Shown in pieces: positions 442 through 23,523 of a stretch of DNA of 28,980 nucleotides. The notes under the pieces are model-generated. The model ran no database searches and was not told the DNA's origin. It saw only the letters and a program-made list of their open reading frames with translations. A program made the position numbers and the translations under genes. The stretch is from a bacterium. GTDB taxonomy: Bacteria; SZUA-182; DTGQ01. How positions within the stretch are numbered: the first letter of the stretch is position 1; every line of letters begins with the position of its first letter. The stretch is taken from NCBI GenBank assembly GCA_023512255.1, contig JAILZY010000043.1:1-28980 (forward strand), given 5' to 3'.

Positions 442-3400
442 ATGAGAGAGCATATTTTGAAAAGGCTTTTTTTGATTTGGGTAGCCACTTTTGGCTGTAT
501 TTTCAGCCTGATCACAGCAGGAGCCGCCCTAGCGGCAGGGCTAGCCAATACCGCCTGGCCATGCCGAGGGCACGATAGCCGACATACAGGATGCAGTCAA
601 TACCGTGGGACCCAAAGCAATACCCTGCGGTGGAGTTTCCAAACTGGCAAATGGGTTGATTCCTCACCAACTATTGGCGCCGACGGCACCATTTATTTCG
701 GTAGCAACAATGGCAAAGTCTACGCCTTAGACCCTAACGGCAGCCTCAAGTGGAGCTACCAGACCGCAGGATACAGTGTTGATTCCTCGCCGGCTCTCGC
801 TGCTGATGGCACTGTCTATATCGGAGGCAGTGATGGCAAAGTCTATGCCTTAGACCCTAACGGCAGCCTCAAGTGGAGCTATCGAACCGGCGCTGGAATC
901 CACTCCTCACCCGTAGTTGGCGCTGACGGAACAGTCTATGTCGGAAGCCTTGATTACAAGCTCTATGCCTTAAAACCAGATGGCAGCCTGAAGTGGAGTT
1001 ATTCAACCGCCGGGGGAATCTATTCCTCACCAGCCATTGGCCCTGACGGCACTATCTATATCGGCAGCTATGATTATCACATCTACGCTATTAATCCGAA
1101 TGGCACCCAAAAGTGGATCTATCTGACCTCATTCTATGTCTGCTCTTCACCAGCTATCGGCCCTGACGGCACTGTTTATATCGGAGGCGGCTGGTGGGGA
1201 GGAGGACGGGCAGATGGCAAGGTCTATGCCATAAGACCCAATGGGACCCTGAAATGGAGCTATCAGACAGAGGCTGATGTTTTTTCCTCACCAGCTCTCG
1301 GCCCTGATGGCACCATTTATGTTGGCAGTACCGATGGCTACATCTATGCCTTGCAATCCGATGGGACACTGAAGTGGAAATACCAAACCGGCGGTGCAGT
1401 TCATTCCTCACCAGCCGTTGGAGCTGACGGCACGGTGTATGTCGGCAGTGATGATGATACGGTTTATGCCCTAAAGTCTGAGGATGGTAGCCTAAAGTGG
1501 AGCTATAAGAGCGGCGGTGATATTTATTCCTCACCAGCCATTGGAGCTGACGGCACTATCTACATCGGCAGCCGGGATGGTAAGCTCTACGCCTTCGGTG
1601 GAAGCAAGGTGTGCATATCCAGCTTGGAGTGTCCGGTCGAAGAGTATTGCCAGAAAGAGGAAGGAGGGTGTGATCAGCCAGGCATTTGTGCCCCCCGTCC
1701 CCAAGAGTGCGTCATGCTCTATGATCCGGTTTGCGGATGCGATGGGCAGACCTATCCCAACTCATGCCAGGCGGCAGCCAGTGGGGTAGGCGTAGATTAT
1801 CATGGACCATGCTCATCAGGAGCTACACCAGCCAAGGCGAGTGAAAGTATCTGGCCAGCTAAAGGCCGCGACAGCCGGCGCAGTGGCCAAAGCCCTTATC
1901 TCGGAGCCCAAAGCGGCAACCTGAAGTGGAGCTTCCAGGCAGGCTTTTCAGTCGATTCCTCACCAGCCATCGGAGCTGACCGAACCATCTACGTAGGCAG
2001 CTATGACGGCAAACTCTATGCTGTTGATCCTAACGGCAGCCAAAAGTGGGCCTTTCAGACTGGAGGCCGAATCATCTCCTCACCAGCCATTGGAGCGGAC
2101 GGCACCATCTATATCGGAACCGAACATGGCCGAGTATTTGCCCTAAACCCTAACGGCAGTCAAAAGTGGGTCTACTCCCTCCTCTCCTCCTCAGTATCTC
2201 AGCCAGGCCCAGCCATTTATTCTTCTCCACTCGTCGGCGATGACGGAACAGTCTATGTGGGAAGCCAAGATGGTAGAGTTTTGGCAATTCGCCCCGATGG
2301 CAGCTTAAAGTGGGCTTTTCAGACCGCAAACAAGGTTGACTCTTCGCCAGCCATTGGAGCGGACGGCACAATCTATATCGGTAGTTTTGATCGCAAGCTC
2401 TATGCCCTAAGCCCTGAGGACGGCAGTCTCCTGTGGAGCTATCTGACTGGAGATCGGATCAGTTCCTCGCCAGCCATAGGAGCAGACGGCACAATCTACA
2501 TTGGCAGCCTGGATGGCAAGATCTATGCCCTGACCACTGATGGCCACCAGAGATGGGTCTATCAGACCGGCGCCGGGATTTACTCCTCAGCAGCCATTGG
2601 CACAGATGGAACAATTTATTTTGGAAGCAGCGACAACAAGATTTACGCCCTGCGGCCCGATGGCAGCCTGAAGTGGTCTTATACAACCGGAGGCAGCGTT
2701 GATTCCTCACCAGCCATAGGAGCTGACGGCACAGTATATATTGGCTGTCGGGACGGCAAGGTCTACGCCTTAAACTCTCAGGATGGCAGCCTAAAGTGGA
2801 GCTATCAGACCGCTGAGGTCATTTATTCTTCACCATCGATTGGCGATGATGGCACGGTCTATATCGGCAGTCGGGATGGCCGGCTCTATGCCTTCAACAA
2901 TCCAGCCTGCACGGACAACACTCAGTGTGCAGAGGGAGAATATTGCCAGAAGGCAGATGGCGACTGTCAAGGGAAGGGAACCTGCAACAGCAGACCTGAT
3001 ATTTGCCCGAAGTATTATCATCCGGTCTGCGGATGCGATGGTCTCACTTATGCCAACTCCTGCCAAGCAGCAGCCAGGGGAGTGAGCATTGACTACGAGG
3101 GAGAGTGCTTAGCCTCGTCTATGGGGGGGCTGGCCAAAAGCGCTTGGCCAGGCAAGGGGCATGATCTTCGGCACACTGGCCAAAGTCCGTATATTGGAGC
3201 CCAGAGCGGCACCTTGAAGTGGAGCTGCCAGATAGGCTCCTCTGTTGATTCTTCACCAGCCATAGGAGCCGACGGCACGATCTACGTAGGAAGCTACGAT
3301 GGAAAGGTCTATGCTCTCGATCCTAACGGCAGCCAAAAGTGGACCTTTCAGACCGGCGGCATGGTCGTCTCCTCACCAGCCGTAGGAGCTGACGGCACAA

Positions 3401-5382
3401 TCTATATCGGCAGTGGAAATGGCCGAGTCTTTGCTCTAAACCCTAACGGCGGTCAAAAGTGGGTTTATACCCTCCCTCCGATCTCCTCATACCTTGCGCA
3501 GAGTCCTCCGGTTTACTCCTCGCCGGTCATAGATGCTGACGGCACAGTCTATATCGGCGCAGGGGATGGCAAGATGCTGGCTATTAAACCTGATGGCACG
3601 CTGAAGTGGAGCTATAAGGCCGCAGATGGAATCGACTCTCAGCCGGCTATCGGCACAGATGGCACGGTCTATGCTGCCAGTCATGACCGTAAGCTCTACG
3701 CTTTCAGGCCAGAGGATGGTGGTCTGAAGTGGAGCTTTCTGACTGGAGACAGGATCATCTCCTCACCGGCCATTGGGGATGATGGCACCATCTATATTGG
3801 AAATTATGATGCCAAGGTCTATGCCATAAATCCTGATGGTAGCCTGAAGTGGACGTTCCGAACAGGCTCATGGATCTATTCCTCGCCGGCCATAGGAGCT
3901 GACGGCACGGTCTATATCGGCAGCACTGACGGCAAGCTCTATGCGCTTTCTCCCCAAAACGGCACTGTCAAGTGGACCTATAAGACCGCAGATGCTATCC
4001 CCTCAACCCCAGCCATAGGGGCCGACGGCACCATCTATTTCGGCAGTCGGGATGGCCAAATTTATGCTCTCAAGCCGGATGGCAGCCTACTGTGGAGTTA
4101 TAAGACGACAGATGCTATCTACTCCTCACCAGCCATTGGAGCCGATGGCACAGTCTATATCGGTAGCCGGGATGGCCGGCTCTATGCCTTCTCTGATACC
4201 AAAGGCTGCCTGACTAATGACCAGTGCTCAAGCGGAGAATTCTGCCAGAAAGAACCCGGAGAATGTAACCAGGAGGGTGTGTGCACTGCTCGACCCGAGG
4301 TGTGCGTGATGCTCTATGATCCGGTCTGTGGATGCGACGGCCGAACCTATTCCAATGCGTGCGTGGCCTACAGCCAGGGAGTGAGTGTCGACTATAAGGG
4401 CGAGTGCAGATCGGCTCAGCTAGAAGTGTGCGATGGTATCGATAATGATAACGACGGACAGGTGGATGAGGATCTCACCAGACCCTGCTCGACTGACTGC
4501 GGAAGCGGGACAGAAAAATGCCAAGCGGGTCAGTGGGTTGGCTGCACTGCTCCAAAGCCCCAAACCTATTATGCTGATAAGGATGGGGACGGCTACGGCA
4601 GCGCTTCACAGAGCATCCAAAGCTGTGGCGCGGCCCCAAGCGGCTTTGTCCTTGACCAGACCGACTGTGATGATAGCGACAGAAACATTCACCCCAATGC
4701 GCCCGAAATCCCCTGTAATGGTAAAGACGATGATTGCCAGGGAGGAGACATCTGTGGTGGTGGCTACCAGACATGTGAAGAGCAGGATTCAGGAACACTG
4801 GACATTGCAGGCACCCAGGGAGCCATTGGACAAGAGGTCAGGGTCCCAGTGAGGCTTCAATTCGCCTCCTCTGAGGTTTACTCCTTTGGCTTTGAGGTGC
4901 TTTTTGAGCCGACTGTTTTGGAATACTCAAGCTTTGAAAAGGGAGAGTTGACCAATCAGGCTACCTATCTTGATGTCATACTAGTTAGCCCTGGTAAGAT
5001 CAGAGTGGGAGGATTGTTCACTAGCCAAGCCATTCCGAAGGGAGCAAGCGGTTCGGTAGTCTGGCTGAAATTCAAGATAAAAGGCGGCCAGCAGAATCAA
5101 TGCTACCCCATCAGGCTGAATAATGTTAAGGATGGTTTTGCTCAATTTTCCAAAACCGATGGATGTTTTTGCCTAAAGCGCAAATGCACCGGAGACCTGA
5201 CAGGGGATGGAGAGATTAGCCCGGCAGATGCCCTGGTAGCTTTCCGATGCTATCTCGGATCTGGAGCCTGTCCGGAATGCTCAGATGTGAATGAGGATGG
5301 TGAGACTACTCCAGCCGATGCCCTGTGCTTATTCTATAAATACCTGGGCAAACCTACTCCTAACTGCCCCGGTCTCAATTGA
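442..5382 (+). CDS. Secreted triple PQQ-propeller / Kazal / MopE / cohesin / dockerin protein
   Basis: A 1646-aa secreted protein with signal peptide at residues 1-32 (cleavage likely after ALAA). Three modules of about 431 aa begin at AWP or IWP motifs (nt ~553, ~1849, ~3142). Each holds eight 40-aa blades of the PQQ type ([15 protein letters not shown]-like), making one 8-bladed propeller, and then a Kazal-like domain with PVCGCDG-x-TY-x-N-x-C (about residues 389-457, 822-889, 1255-1323). A MopE-like metal-binding region follows at ~1327-1440 ([21 protein letters not shown]). A cohesin domain is at ~1450-1575. A dockerin is at ~1582-1646 with two calcium loops ([24 protein letters not shown]). 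A strong AAGGAGG precedes the ATG. The propellers may be purely structural, since these repeats do not prove PQQ binding. Kazal domains usually inhibit serine proteases; cohesin and dockerin usually bind each other. Role inferred: cell-surface or extracellular scaffold. Confidence 0.9.
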
Positions 5383-6041: not shown

Positions 6042-8444
6042 CTATTTTTTCACTCTCAACAGATAGGCTCGGCTGCGCTCCTGGCGGTTATTGGTAACCC
6101 AAAGATAGTAGGGGCCATGTCCTAGTCCTGCGGTATTGGCTCGGAACCGAACCTCGGTGTCCGAAATATGGAGGAGCTCCTGCCTGATTCTCTTGGCCTT
6201 GGCATAATCAGCCATATTGCCTATTTCCACTATGCAGGCTGGATAGATGCGGGTAGAGCTCATGGCAAATCCATCGAACCAGATACTTTGTTTTATGGGC
6301 AACTGCTCATAACGCCAATTCTGGCAGTTAGTGGTGCCAAGCTCAAGGGGGCCAAAGACCAGCTTCTTGCTTTTCTCCTGATAGCACTTGCTCCAAGGAA
6401 ACTGCTGGGGAGCCTGGTCATACTCATCATAAATCGGGCATTCCTCTCCATCCAGCCAAAATTTTAAATCTATCCCTGGCCCATTTTTTTTGACCCACAA
6501 CTCAAGGCAATACCATCGCTCAAGGGCAATTGGACCCGGCAGATGAACAAATAGCCTGCTCTGCCCCTGGATATCATAGCGGGCTGGCCCCCGCTCGATC
6601 GGCGGATGATCCCACATGCAGGGGTTTAGGTTGAATAGGTTATGGACATAGAGCTGCTTCCAGCTATTGTCAGTCCACTGAAAGGAAGGGCCACTGTATC
6701 GGACGTAATAGCGGTAATAATATTGATCTGCATCCTTTGCCTCCCACCAGGTCAGGTTATAAAACTCACCCTTGCCTGGGCACTCCTTGGCGTACTTCCA
6801 GTCTGTGGCTGTGTAGTGAATATTATTGCGGTAACTCTGATGGCCCAAAATTGCCACTTGAGAATCGAAGACCACATCCTCATCCCGTCTGGCTGCGGTC
6901 GGGGCCCAGCACTCCCACCCATCCCGAACCCAGCAATTTGCCTCCTTCTTCCAGCCGACTGTATCCTCAAAGCTCCCTTGAGATTCACTAAAATGGATCC
7001 AGTTCCCGGTCGATTGTGCTGACAGTCGCCTGCCGATCAAGGTCATGATGCATCCGGTGAGACTTTCAAGCCGGCCGGGCTGGGGTAAGATGGATGAGAT
7101 GATGGGTAGAGAGCCGTCCTGTTGAGGGGGCTTTCGGAAAAAGGGGATCATCCACCCTTGAGAGCGAAAAGCTGCCCATCCGCCGGATGGGTTTTCGGCA
7201 GCCGCGCGGCTGACAGCGACCCTAAGCAGATCTTGCTTTGGCCAGATGGCAGAAAAAAAAGCCGCTTCTTCCTCCCAGCCGCCACCTGTCTCAATAAGCT
7301 GACAATCCTGCTTCTGCCAGGCTGCCTCCCCATTTAGAAGGTAAAGCTCTCCCCCTTCTCCGGCAGCAAGATCAAGGCAATAGCCCCCACTGTTTTCCCG
7401 GCAGAGCTGGGTCGGACAATCAGGTTGCGAGATATCAAGACACAGCACCCCCTCTCTCCCTTGGGCCAGACACAGGGTATCTGCCGCAGCCAGCATTCGG
7501 CTAACTCCGGCTACGGGATAAGAGCCGACTCGAGATATGGCCGATGGTAAACTAAGATCATAAATTTCAAGCTCTTGTCCTCTCTCACTCGCTAGAAAAA
7601 GATGACTGCCTAAGACGGCCACCCGAAGAGGTGCGGCGGCGCTTGCGGCCTTTATCTTAGCCAGCCCTACGGGTCTGTAGACTGCAGTTAGATCAATCAG
7701 CCAAAAACCTGCACTCATCGGCGCCAAGGGAGCAGCAGATTCCCACAAGAGCGCGGCTAGAGCCGCACCTTGATTTTCCCACACAGTCAGATCACCATAG
7801 TGAATCTCCCCCTCCGCCTGCTCTTCTTCCCTCCAGCGGCTAATCACCCTAGGAGACCGAAGGTTTGAGACATCCAGCAGAGAAATCCCCCCAAGCTTTT
7901 CGCTGACCACCAGAAGATCTGCTCCTAGCAAGGCTATCCCCTGAATTGATGAGGAGAAAAGTGCCCCCCCGCTCTCCATCGGCAGATTAATCAGCCCAGG
8001 GGCCGCAGGATTAGAAATATCCACCAGGCTCAATTTCCCATCGACTGAACCCAGATAAGCGTACTGCCCTCTGACAGCCAGACACAGGGCCGCAGAAGTC
8101 AAACATGAGCCTACGGCCGCCATGTTAGCCTCCTGCACACCAGTTTCTAATAAATATTTGGGATCGAGAATGAAAAATTTTTGACCACCGGCAGCATAGA
8201 GATAGTGGTTGTGCCAGATAATCCTCTGAGCATCTTCCAGGGCAAGAGGGCAAATTTTTATCTCGCCGGAGGAATCAGCCTGCGGCCTGTCAAAAGAAGG
8301 GAGAAAAATTTCTATTTTCTCACTCTGCTTTGGCCAGCGGGTAAGAGATATGCCGCGGGTGTTTTTTTGACCTAAAAAGAGCAGAAAAACAATCATAATG
8401 AGGGAAAAAGAGAAGTTTGCGATCTTCTTTTCAAACCTTGACAT
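6042..8444 (-). CDS. Membrane-anchored or secreted LVIVD-propeller protein with lectin/IPT-like C-terminus
   Basis: An 800-aa protein. Residues 11-26 are hydrophobic (signal peptide or N-terminal anchor; no lipobox seen). Residues ~60-440 contain LVIVD-type repeats such as KLSLVDISNPAAPGLINL and GISLLDVSNLRSPRVISRW, predicting a beta-propeller outside the cytoplasm. The C-terminal 350 residues begin like an IPT/TIG domain (ISSILPQPGRLESLTG) and end like one (GPYYLWVTNN). Between them are about 250 residues rich in Trp and Tyr (FYNLTWWEAKDADQYYYRYY) that look like a concanavalin-type jelly roll. The ATG at 8444 has GAGAGGTGA upstream. The protein probably binds carbohydrate or another surface ligand; the lectin assignment is inference from composition and pattern. 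Confidence 0.75.
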   Translation of the reverse strand: MSRFEKKIANFSFSLIMIVFLLFLGQKNTRGISLTRWPKQSEKIEIFLPSFDRPQADSSGEIKICPLALEDAQRIIWHNHYLYAAGGQKFFILDPKYLLETGVQEANMAAVGSCLTSAALCLAVRGQYAYLGSVDGKLSLVDISNPAAPGLINLPMESGGALFSSSIQGIALLGADLLVVSEKLGGISLLDVSNLRSPRVISRWREEEQAEGEIHYGDLTVWENQGAALAALLWESAAPLAPMSAGFWLIDLTAVYRPVGLAKIKAASAAAPLRVAVLGSHLFLASERGQELEIYDLSLPSAISRVGSYPVAGVSRMLAAADTLCLAQGREGVLCLDISQPDCPTQLCRENSGGYCLDLAAGEGGELYLLNGEAAWQKQDCQLIETGGGWEEEAAFFSAIWPKQDLLRVAVSRAAAENPSGGWAAFRSQGWMIPFFRKPPQQDGSLPIISSILPQPGRLESLTGCIMTLIGRRLSAQSTGNWIHFSESQGSFEDTVGWKKEANCWVRDGWECWAPTAARRDEDVVFDSQVAILGHQSYRNNIHYTATDWKYAKECPGKGEFYNLTWWEAKDADQYYYRYYVRYSGPSFQWTDNSWKQLYVHNLFNLNPCMWDHPPIERGPARYDIQGQSRLFVHLPGPIALERWYCLELWVKKNGPGIDLKFWLDGEECPIYDEYDQAPQQFPWSKCYQEKSKKLVFGPLELGTTNCQNWRYEQLPIKQSIWFDGFAMSSTRIYPACIVEIGNMADYAKAKRIRQELLHISDTEVRFRANTAGLGHGPYYLWVTNNRQERSRAYLLRVKK

Positions 8445-22506: not shown

Positions 22507-23342
22507 GGGGAAAAAGAGATTAAGATTTTCGACGGCAATAAGCCAGAGAGCCACATTAAGCAGTTCTATCGCTGGATTACCAATGAAAGGGTAGAGGCCA
22601 AGCTGTACTTTTTGCCCTTTGTCACTACCCTGCTGACAGCCCTTGCTCAGACTACCCTGTTTGTGGTGGTAGATGGCAGTTATGTAGGCAGAAGGTATGT
22701 TACCCTCATGGCCAATGTGGTCTACAAAAGAAGAGCCTTGCCGATTGTCTGGATTGTGGTCAAGGGGAAGAAAGGTCACTTGTGAGAGAGGAGATTCACC
22801 TGCAGCTGATCGAACAACTCCACCAGATTATCCCTGCTGGAGCACAGATAGTCTTTCTGGGAGATGGGGAGTTTTATGGCCTTAGGCTTTTGGATACGAT
22901 AAGCGGTTATGGATGGCAGTATATATGCCGCACTGCTAAGAGCAGTGTCCTCTTTAGGGGAGAGGAAAAGTTCTCCTTTGGAGATATTTTTCTTCCCCAA
23001 GGACAAAAACCCGTGAGTCTGCCTGCTGTCTTTTTCACTAACCAAGCCTATGGTCCTCCTCATGCTATCCTCTGGTGGGAGAAGAGATACAAAGAGCCCA
23101 TCTGTCTGATCACCAATGTTGAATCGACACAAGATGCCTGCAGCTGGTATGGAAAAAGATTTCGGATTGAGACCTTTTTCTCTGACCAAAAGAGTAGAGG
23201 ATTCTGTCTGCATAAAAGCCATATCTCTGACCCTAAAAGACTCTCTCGGCTGATGGTCGCAGCCTGCTTAGCCTATATCTGGATTATCTTTCTTGGCGTT
23301 CAGGCCCTAGCCAAAAGGCTCAATACATTTATCCATCGCAAT

Positions 23343-23365
23343 GACAGGCGAGCCGCCTGTGCTAC
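23343..23365. repeat. 24-bp palindrome in the transposase gene, copy 2 (inverted, in frame)
   Basis: ACAGGCG (23344-23350) and CGCCTGT (23354-23360) pair around AGC and are followed by GCTAC. It is the reverse complement of copy 1 at 22423-22446. Here it is read through, adding about eight residues between IHR and RCDLSLFQ. Confidence 0.75.
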
Positions 23366-23523
23366 TGAACGCTGTGATTTGAGTCTCTTTCAACTTGGCT
23401 TACGCCTACTTGATTACTTGTTGAATTACGAATTACCTATCCCTGTCCTATTTTATTATCCCTTTGAGGCTCGGTTATGAAAATGTGTCCGGTAGTGAGA
23501 AAATTTTATCTCTTAATTTTTTA

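Follow-up and report, generated by a model that had tools for sequence, protein, structure and literature searches.

The window analyzed here is a stretch of 28,980 nucleotides (positions 1 to 28,980 of contig JAILZY010000043.1, assembly GCA_023512255.1) from a bacterium of the lineage SZUA-182, DTGQ01. At 442-5382 it carries a gene for a 1646-residue protein, predicted from its sequence to be exported, in which a signal peptide is followed by three repeats of an eight-bladed beta-propeller, a Cys-rich hairpin and a Kazal domain, and then by repeats of the MopE type, a cohesin and, at the end of the chain, a dockerin. A first-pass annotation had read this domain string directly from the protein, and Pfam, a scan for blade motifs, structural models and an orthologue now confirm it. 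The cohesin and dockerin form a module that recurs on many other proteins of the same genome, and its role is the main subject of this report.

A protein of propellers, Kazal domains, cohesin and dockerin

The features of the gene, with the evidence for each, are as follows.

442-5382, + strand: open reading frame (ORF) of 1646 residues for the propeller-Kazal-cohesin-dockerin protein (ORF call, Pfam, same-genus orthologue)
428-436, + strand: Shine-Dalgarno-like AAGGAGGAG, 5 bases ahead of the ATG (read from sequence)
442-537, + strand: predicted signal peptide, residues 1-32, with a hydrophobic core and an ALA cleavage-like motif (sequence reading)
610-1605, + strand: beta-propeller 1, 8 blades (8 blade motifs, Pfam)
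1606-1818, + strand: Cys-rich hairpin and Kazal domain 1, loop CVMLYDPVC, P1 Met (Pfam, motif scan, loop comparison)
1906-2904, + strand: beta-propeller 2, 8 blades (blade motifs, Pfam)
2905-3108, + strand: Cys-rich hairpin and Kazal domain 2, loop CPKYYHPVC, P1 Lys (Pfam, motif scan, loop comparison)
3202-4197, + strand: beta-propeller 3, 8 blades (blade motifs, Pfam, AlphaFold2, Foldseek)
4198-4410, + strand: Cys-rich hairpin and Kazal domain 3, loop CVMLYDPVC, P1 Met (Pfam, motif scan, AlphaFold2, phmmer to solved Kazal inhibitors)
4417-4761, + strand: MopE-type or CDGxDND(C)DG repeats, putatively metal binding (Pfam PF11617)
4771-5175, + strand: type I-like cohesin that opens the cohesin-dockerin module (Pfam, profile against cohesins of the Protein Data Bank (PDB), model and structural match)
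5179-5379, + strand: C-terminal dockerin with two calcium loops (Pfam, profile against PDB dockerins, calcium-loop reading)

A scan for promoters and terminators gave nothing above shuffled controls.

The three propeller-Kazal units share 59-64% identity pairwise. Pfam propeller families match the protein with 8-11 stretches, and the motif scan counts exactly 24 blades in three groups of 8. With units 1 and 2 supplied as the alignment, AlphaFold2 models unit 3 as a closed eight-bladed propeller (mean predicted local distance difference test score (pLDDT) 86.8, blades ~95) with a Kazal-like element at pLDDT ~75-90. By Foldseek, the best PDB match of this model is the designed eight-bladed Cake8 (root-mean-square deviation 0.9 Å, TMt 0.98), and the next matches are natural propellers of the pyrroloquinoline quinone (PQQ)-like type. 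Motifs and model together give eight four-stranded blades closing a ring, as in the eight-bladed PQQ-like propellers. Known propellers of the PQQ/YxaL type (3HXJ, 7DXN and Cake8) are alike in fold and blade sequence; the protein at 442-5382 differs in having three in tandem with a hairpin-Kazal unit after each. By analogy with the YxaL- and Cake-type relatives, PQQ binding or a dehydrogenase role is not expected.

Why would such a chain carry Kazal domains? Pfam Kazal_1 (PF00050) matches three times (E 2e-18 and 66 bits in all), with each domain above the cut-off, and a motif scan places the three PVCGCDG cores at residues 429, 861 and 1294. All three domains combine the profile match with the Kazal cysteine pattern and its Cys-X-P1 loop. 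A Cys-X-P1-P1'-Tyr loop has been described for non-classical Kazal inhibitors (PMC3082530). LDTI, SPINK1 and silk protease inhibitor 2 share this loop and match in sequence, whereas the domains here have an extra cysteine in VCGCDG, a preceding Cys-rich hairpin and a bacterial host. That hairpin is conserved ahead of each Kazal domain, and the sequence of the pair resembles the follistatin-type arrangement, which we take as a resemblance only. The idea in the first-pass annotation that the Kazal domains could guard the protein against proteases has gained strength: the loop keeps its canonical form while P1 changes (M, K and M here; T, E and M in the orthologue of a second species), and the genome holds 7 subtilase-family genes. 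The Kazal units look functional, with these subtilases as possible targets, or self-made threats, of a predicted inhibition. Separately, an order-level relative (G004) encodes an 887-residue frame of about nine tandem Kazal units (C176:2152-4152).

Past the third Kazal domain, Cu-binding_MopE (PF11617) matches twice (E 3e-9). Within residues 1450-1646, where the annotation had placed a cohesin and a dockerin in one chain, Pfam matches both. Cohesin (PF00963) lies at residues 1452-1560 (E 2e-12, 48.0 bits against a cut-off of 24.1) and Dockerin_1 (PF00404) at residues 1584-1630; the latter is borderline in the whole-protein search (23.0 bits against 22.9, E 1e-4), and the same dockerin scores 28 bits in the genome-wide search. 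We accept it because the profile of the 13-member module family described below matches solved dockerins as well as solved cohesins, and because two calcium loops with ligand-type residues can be read in its sequence. In a model of residues 1441-1646 predicted from the single sequence, the cohesin part is confident and matches the type I cohesin 4UMS (Z 16.9 over 137 residues), the top rows being all cohesins.

The second species of the genus (G001) has a full-length orthologue with every domain in place, at 74% amino acid identity and a ratio of nonsynonymous to synonymous substitution rates of about 0.14, which argues that the architecture did not arise by chance. The dockerin is the best-conserved part of the pair (87%).

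One module on many unrelated proteins

The genome of this bacterium (G000; 3.83 Mb, 96.6% complete) gave 21 matches to the cohesin family, for about two dozen cohesins altogether, and about 20 to the dockerin family. Sorted by ORF, these give 14 proteins with both domains, while 5 have cohesins alone and 6 have dockerins alone; the 14 include C15 and C26, whose cohesins fall under the family threshold genome-wide but show up by alignment or as low-scoring matches. Over their full length, thirteen module copies align with one another and are 43-53% identical to the window copy. The carriers include a gingipain-like C25 peptidase, a papain-like peptidase, VWA, Lcl_C and RHS proteins, a terpene-cyclase-like toroid and propeller-Kazal proteins, C15 being the second of these with one propeller-Kazal unit.

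In 12 of the 14 proteins the dockerin lies no more than about 31 residues from the C-terminus, and the C-terminal modules, on twelve unrelated carriers, mostly end in ...PSCLD. Could the module serve chiefly to direct export or sorting, as other conserved C-terminal domains do, its cohesin and dockerin no longer binding? The shared terminus would fit such a role. In the remaining two carriers, however, 1800 (C81) and 143 (C26) residues follow the dockerin, which makes this reading less likely, and calcium-loop ligands are retained in nearly all copies. We consider a sorting tag quite improbable.

Other properties of the module would suit a cohesin that grips the dockerin next to it in the same chain. 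The result would be a closed C-terminal cap, rich in cysteine, stabilizing or labeling exported proteins without any network. The two domains occur nearly always together as one homologous unit, only about five residues join the last cohesin strand to the first calcium loop of the dockerin, and ten cysteine positions are conserved. Yet the same join looks, from the sequence, very short for folding back. Two pairs of cysteines have been lost jointly, 1554 with 1577 in C66, C9, C15 and C122, and 1629 with 1642 in C81 and C9; these events are few, and each pair lies within one domain, which suggests intra-domain disulfides and provides no argument for a lock across domains. Closure within the chain would also have no need of the dockerin-only and cohesin-only proteins that exist, and we think it unlikely.

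Dockerins are near-uniform across the genome: those of the modules share 63% identity with one another, and dockerin-only proteins share 56% with them, while the corresponding cohesin values are 44% among modules and 35% between scaffold-type and module cohesins. These values would be expected if all dockerins had a single docking specificity and both the module and the scaffold cohesins recognized it. Such uniformity also permits homotypic pairing, and with both halves in one chain each dockerin might bind the cohesin of the next copy, joining module-bearing proteins head to tail in a polymer, as the first-pass annotation had suggested. Cellulosome adaptor scaffoldins, on the other hand, usually combine a cohesin with a dockerin of another specificity (PMC4959524), which prevents self-polymerization. 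We think a head-to-tail polymer unlikely.

What do the proteins with a single kind of domain look like? One cohesin-only protein (C134:9853-11760) has two cohesins and a lipobox-like SLLAGC, the motif being weaker in its G001 counterpart (L170, FPGC), and is a candidate lipid-anchored scaffoldin. Three others (C122:19218-22496, C153:1652-2806 and C89:396-6299) have low-complexity tails rich in Trp, Tyr, Phe, Gly and Ser whose last residue is aromatic. Trp, Tyr and Phe make up 21-25% of these tails against 4-14% in other proteins; in the G001 counterparts (L167, L168 and L175) the values are 24% and 23% for those of C122 and C153 and 14% for the third. Such a tail is a possible surface or outer-membrane anchor. 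The dockerin-only proteins include beta-helix proteins and an exported hexapeptide-repeat protein with a terminal dockerin (C65:1058-2026), which would, on a reading of its Hexapep match, be gamma-carbonic-anhydrase-like. Several genes of the system are clustered at C122:5501-24399, which encodes a module-bearing gingipain-like C25 peptidase and dockerin-only beta-helix, two-cohesin HYR and dockerin-only MopE proteins; the last three genes (dockerin-only, two-cohesin scaffold, dockerin-only) keep their order in G001 (L167).

Cohesin and dockerin folds of type I would fit a cellulosome. Nevertheless, a Pfam scan of the 20 full dockerin-bearing proteins from this 96.6% complete genome matched no glycoside hydrolase family, and no cellulose-binding module of Pfam matched the cohesin-only proteins, which have one or two cohesins. 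We reject a cellulosome for the proteins scanned and regard it as exceedingly improbable.

A surface network as the favored reading

We favor, with somewhat more confidence than doubt, a non-cellulosomal cohesin-dockerin network that would hold the exported, probably surface-displayed protein at 442-5382. That the same module recurs on at least a dozen other exported proteins of the genome points to a cell-surface assembly and not to a cellulosome. The C-terminal dockerin would bind the cohesin of another protein, candidate partners being the lipobox double-cohesin protein, the cohesin proteins with aromatic tails and the cohesin of another module-bearing protein, and its own cohesin would stay free to receive another client's dockerin. 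Scaffolds would thus hold module-bearing proteins by their dockerins while each module cohesin accepts another dockerin, so that the module-bearing proteins would act like monovalent adaptor scaffoldins. On the window protein, the three propellers may serve as rigid platforms that bind ligands or partners, and the three Kazal loops may inhibit serine proteases that could otherwise cleave what is displayed. Docking on a scaffold, one of the possibilities raised in the first-pass annotation, gains plausibility from the cohesin-only and dockerin-only proteins that the genome encodes separately.

Several observations weigh against this network. In the tail model the dockerin part is uncertain (pLDDT ~42-61), with two helices predicted at low confidence, and Thr replaces Asn or Asp at position 3 of the first dockerin loop. 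The positions that are Ser-Thr for cohesin recognition in C. thermocellum are mostly Pro-Ala here, so the choice of partner is not transferable from that species. The window gene adjoins no gene of the network, and the G001 locus shares only the 442-5382 gene itself, its neighbors not being conserved.

The neighbors in the window are housekeeping and regulatory genes (a radical SAM protein, regulators, UvrB, a PBP1-type protein and DUF1385) and a gene for an LVIVD-repeat protein, and they suggest no functional link to the gene. This last neighbor, at 6042-8444 on the - strand, encodes an exported protein of 800 residues in which one LVIVD repeat was matched and the C-terminal half otherwise carries no assignment, and a transposase DDE fragment with a partial PF01609 match lies at 22782-23480 on the + strand.

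Known systems, distribution and implications

The first-pass annotation called a cohesin and dockerin combined outside cellulosomes unusual. This was overstated, since non-cellulosomal cohesins and dockerins are already known in archaea and bacteria, and a cohesin and a dockerin in one chain are standard in cellulosome adaptor scaffoldins (PMC4959524). In anaerobic methanotrophic (ANME) archaea and their bacterial partners, abundant cohesin and dockerin proteins have been proposed as adhesion parts (PMC9012536, PMC10553843). As here, ANME archaea and their sulfate-reducing partners export numerous proteins with cohesins or dockerins but no cellulases; they also have scaffold-like proteins and, as reported, one adhesin with adjacent cohesin and dockerin domains (PMC9012536, PMC10553843). 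The present system differs in that 14 unrelated proteins share a single homologous module, in another lineage, with one carrier bearing propeller-Kazal triplets; the searched portions of text of the two ANME papers make no mention of Kazal domains. A dockerin-bearing C25 peptidase is on record from a Cloacimonadota lineage (PMC8542988). Monovalent adaptor scaffoldins of cellulosomes, for example those of Ruminococcus flavefaciens (PMC4959524), likewise have one cohesin and one dockerin per chain and relay clients to a scaffold, but in a cellulolytic complex, whereas here the module is the tail of a functional protein with no glycoside hydrolase attached.

The cohesin and dockerin proteins of Archaeoglobus fulgidus (2XDH) are also non-cellulosomal, and their cohesin fold was recovered both in the profile search (E 3.5e-5) and in the structural comparison (Z 15.8). 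That archaeal system comprises only a few proteins and is not known to have a propeller or Kazal partner. In the open-licence literature we found no description of Kazal, cohesin and dockerin domains in one system, nor of one cohesin-dockerin tail reused on a dozen unrelated exported proteins or joined to propeller-Kazal units.

How widespread is the module? At least 11 copies occur in G001 against at most 3 in other members of the family, and of some 285 further genomes searched, 5 have look-alikes, all of them distant; some cohesin and dockerin were found in all eight genomes searched of the class. Among named genomes, a contig scan gave Kazal, propeller or MopE relatives, most of them from Myxococcota and 'Deltaproteobacteria', but the cohesin-dockerin module was on none of these, and the viral contigs searched gave no relative.

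A bolder form of the network, which we offer tentatively and think rather doubtful, is a cellulase-free system at the level of the genus in which a dozen or more unrelated exported proteins bear the same bifunctional tail, every client is also an adaptor, branched or linear chains grow from lipid-anchored and aromatic-tail scaffolds, and the Kazal members are built-in protease guards. The propeller-Kazal triplet would be a bacterial case of protease inhibitors integrated in a display scaffold. If the module binds in trans, cohesin-dockerin chemistry would give one genome a general means of constructing its outer surface, and peptidases, adhesion-type domains, propellers and inhibitors would be clients that can stand in for one another. 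It would also provide a new disulfide-containing, possibly self-assembling pair for protein engineering, and the interaction would be used well beyond the digestion of plant fiber.

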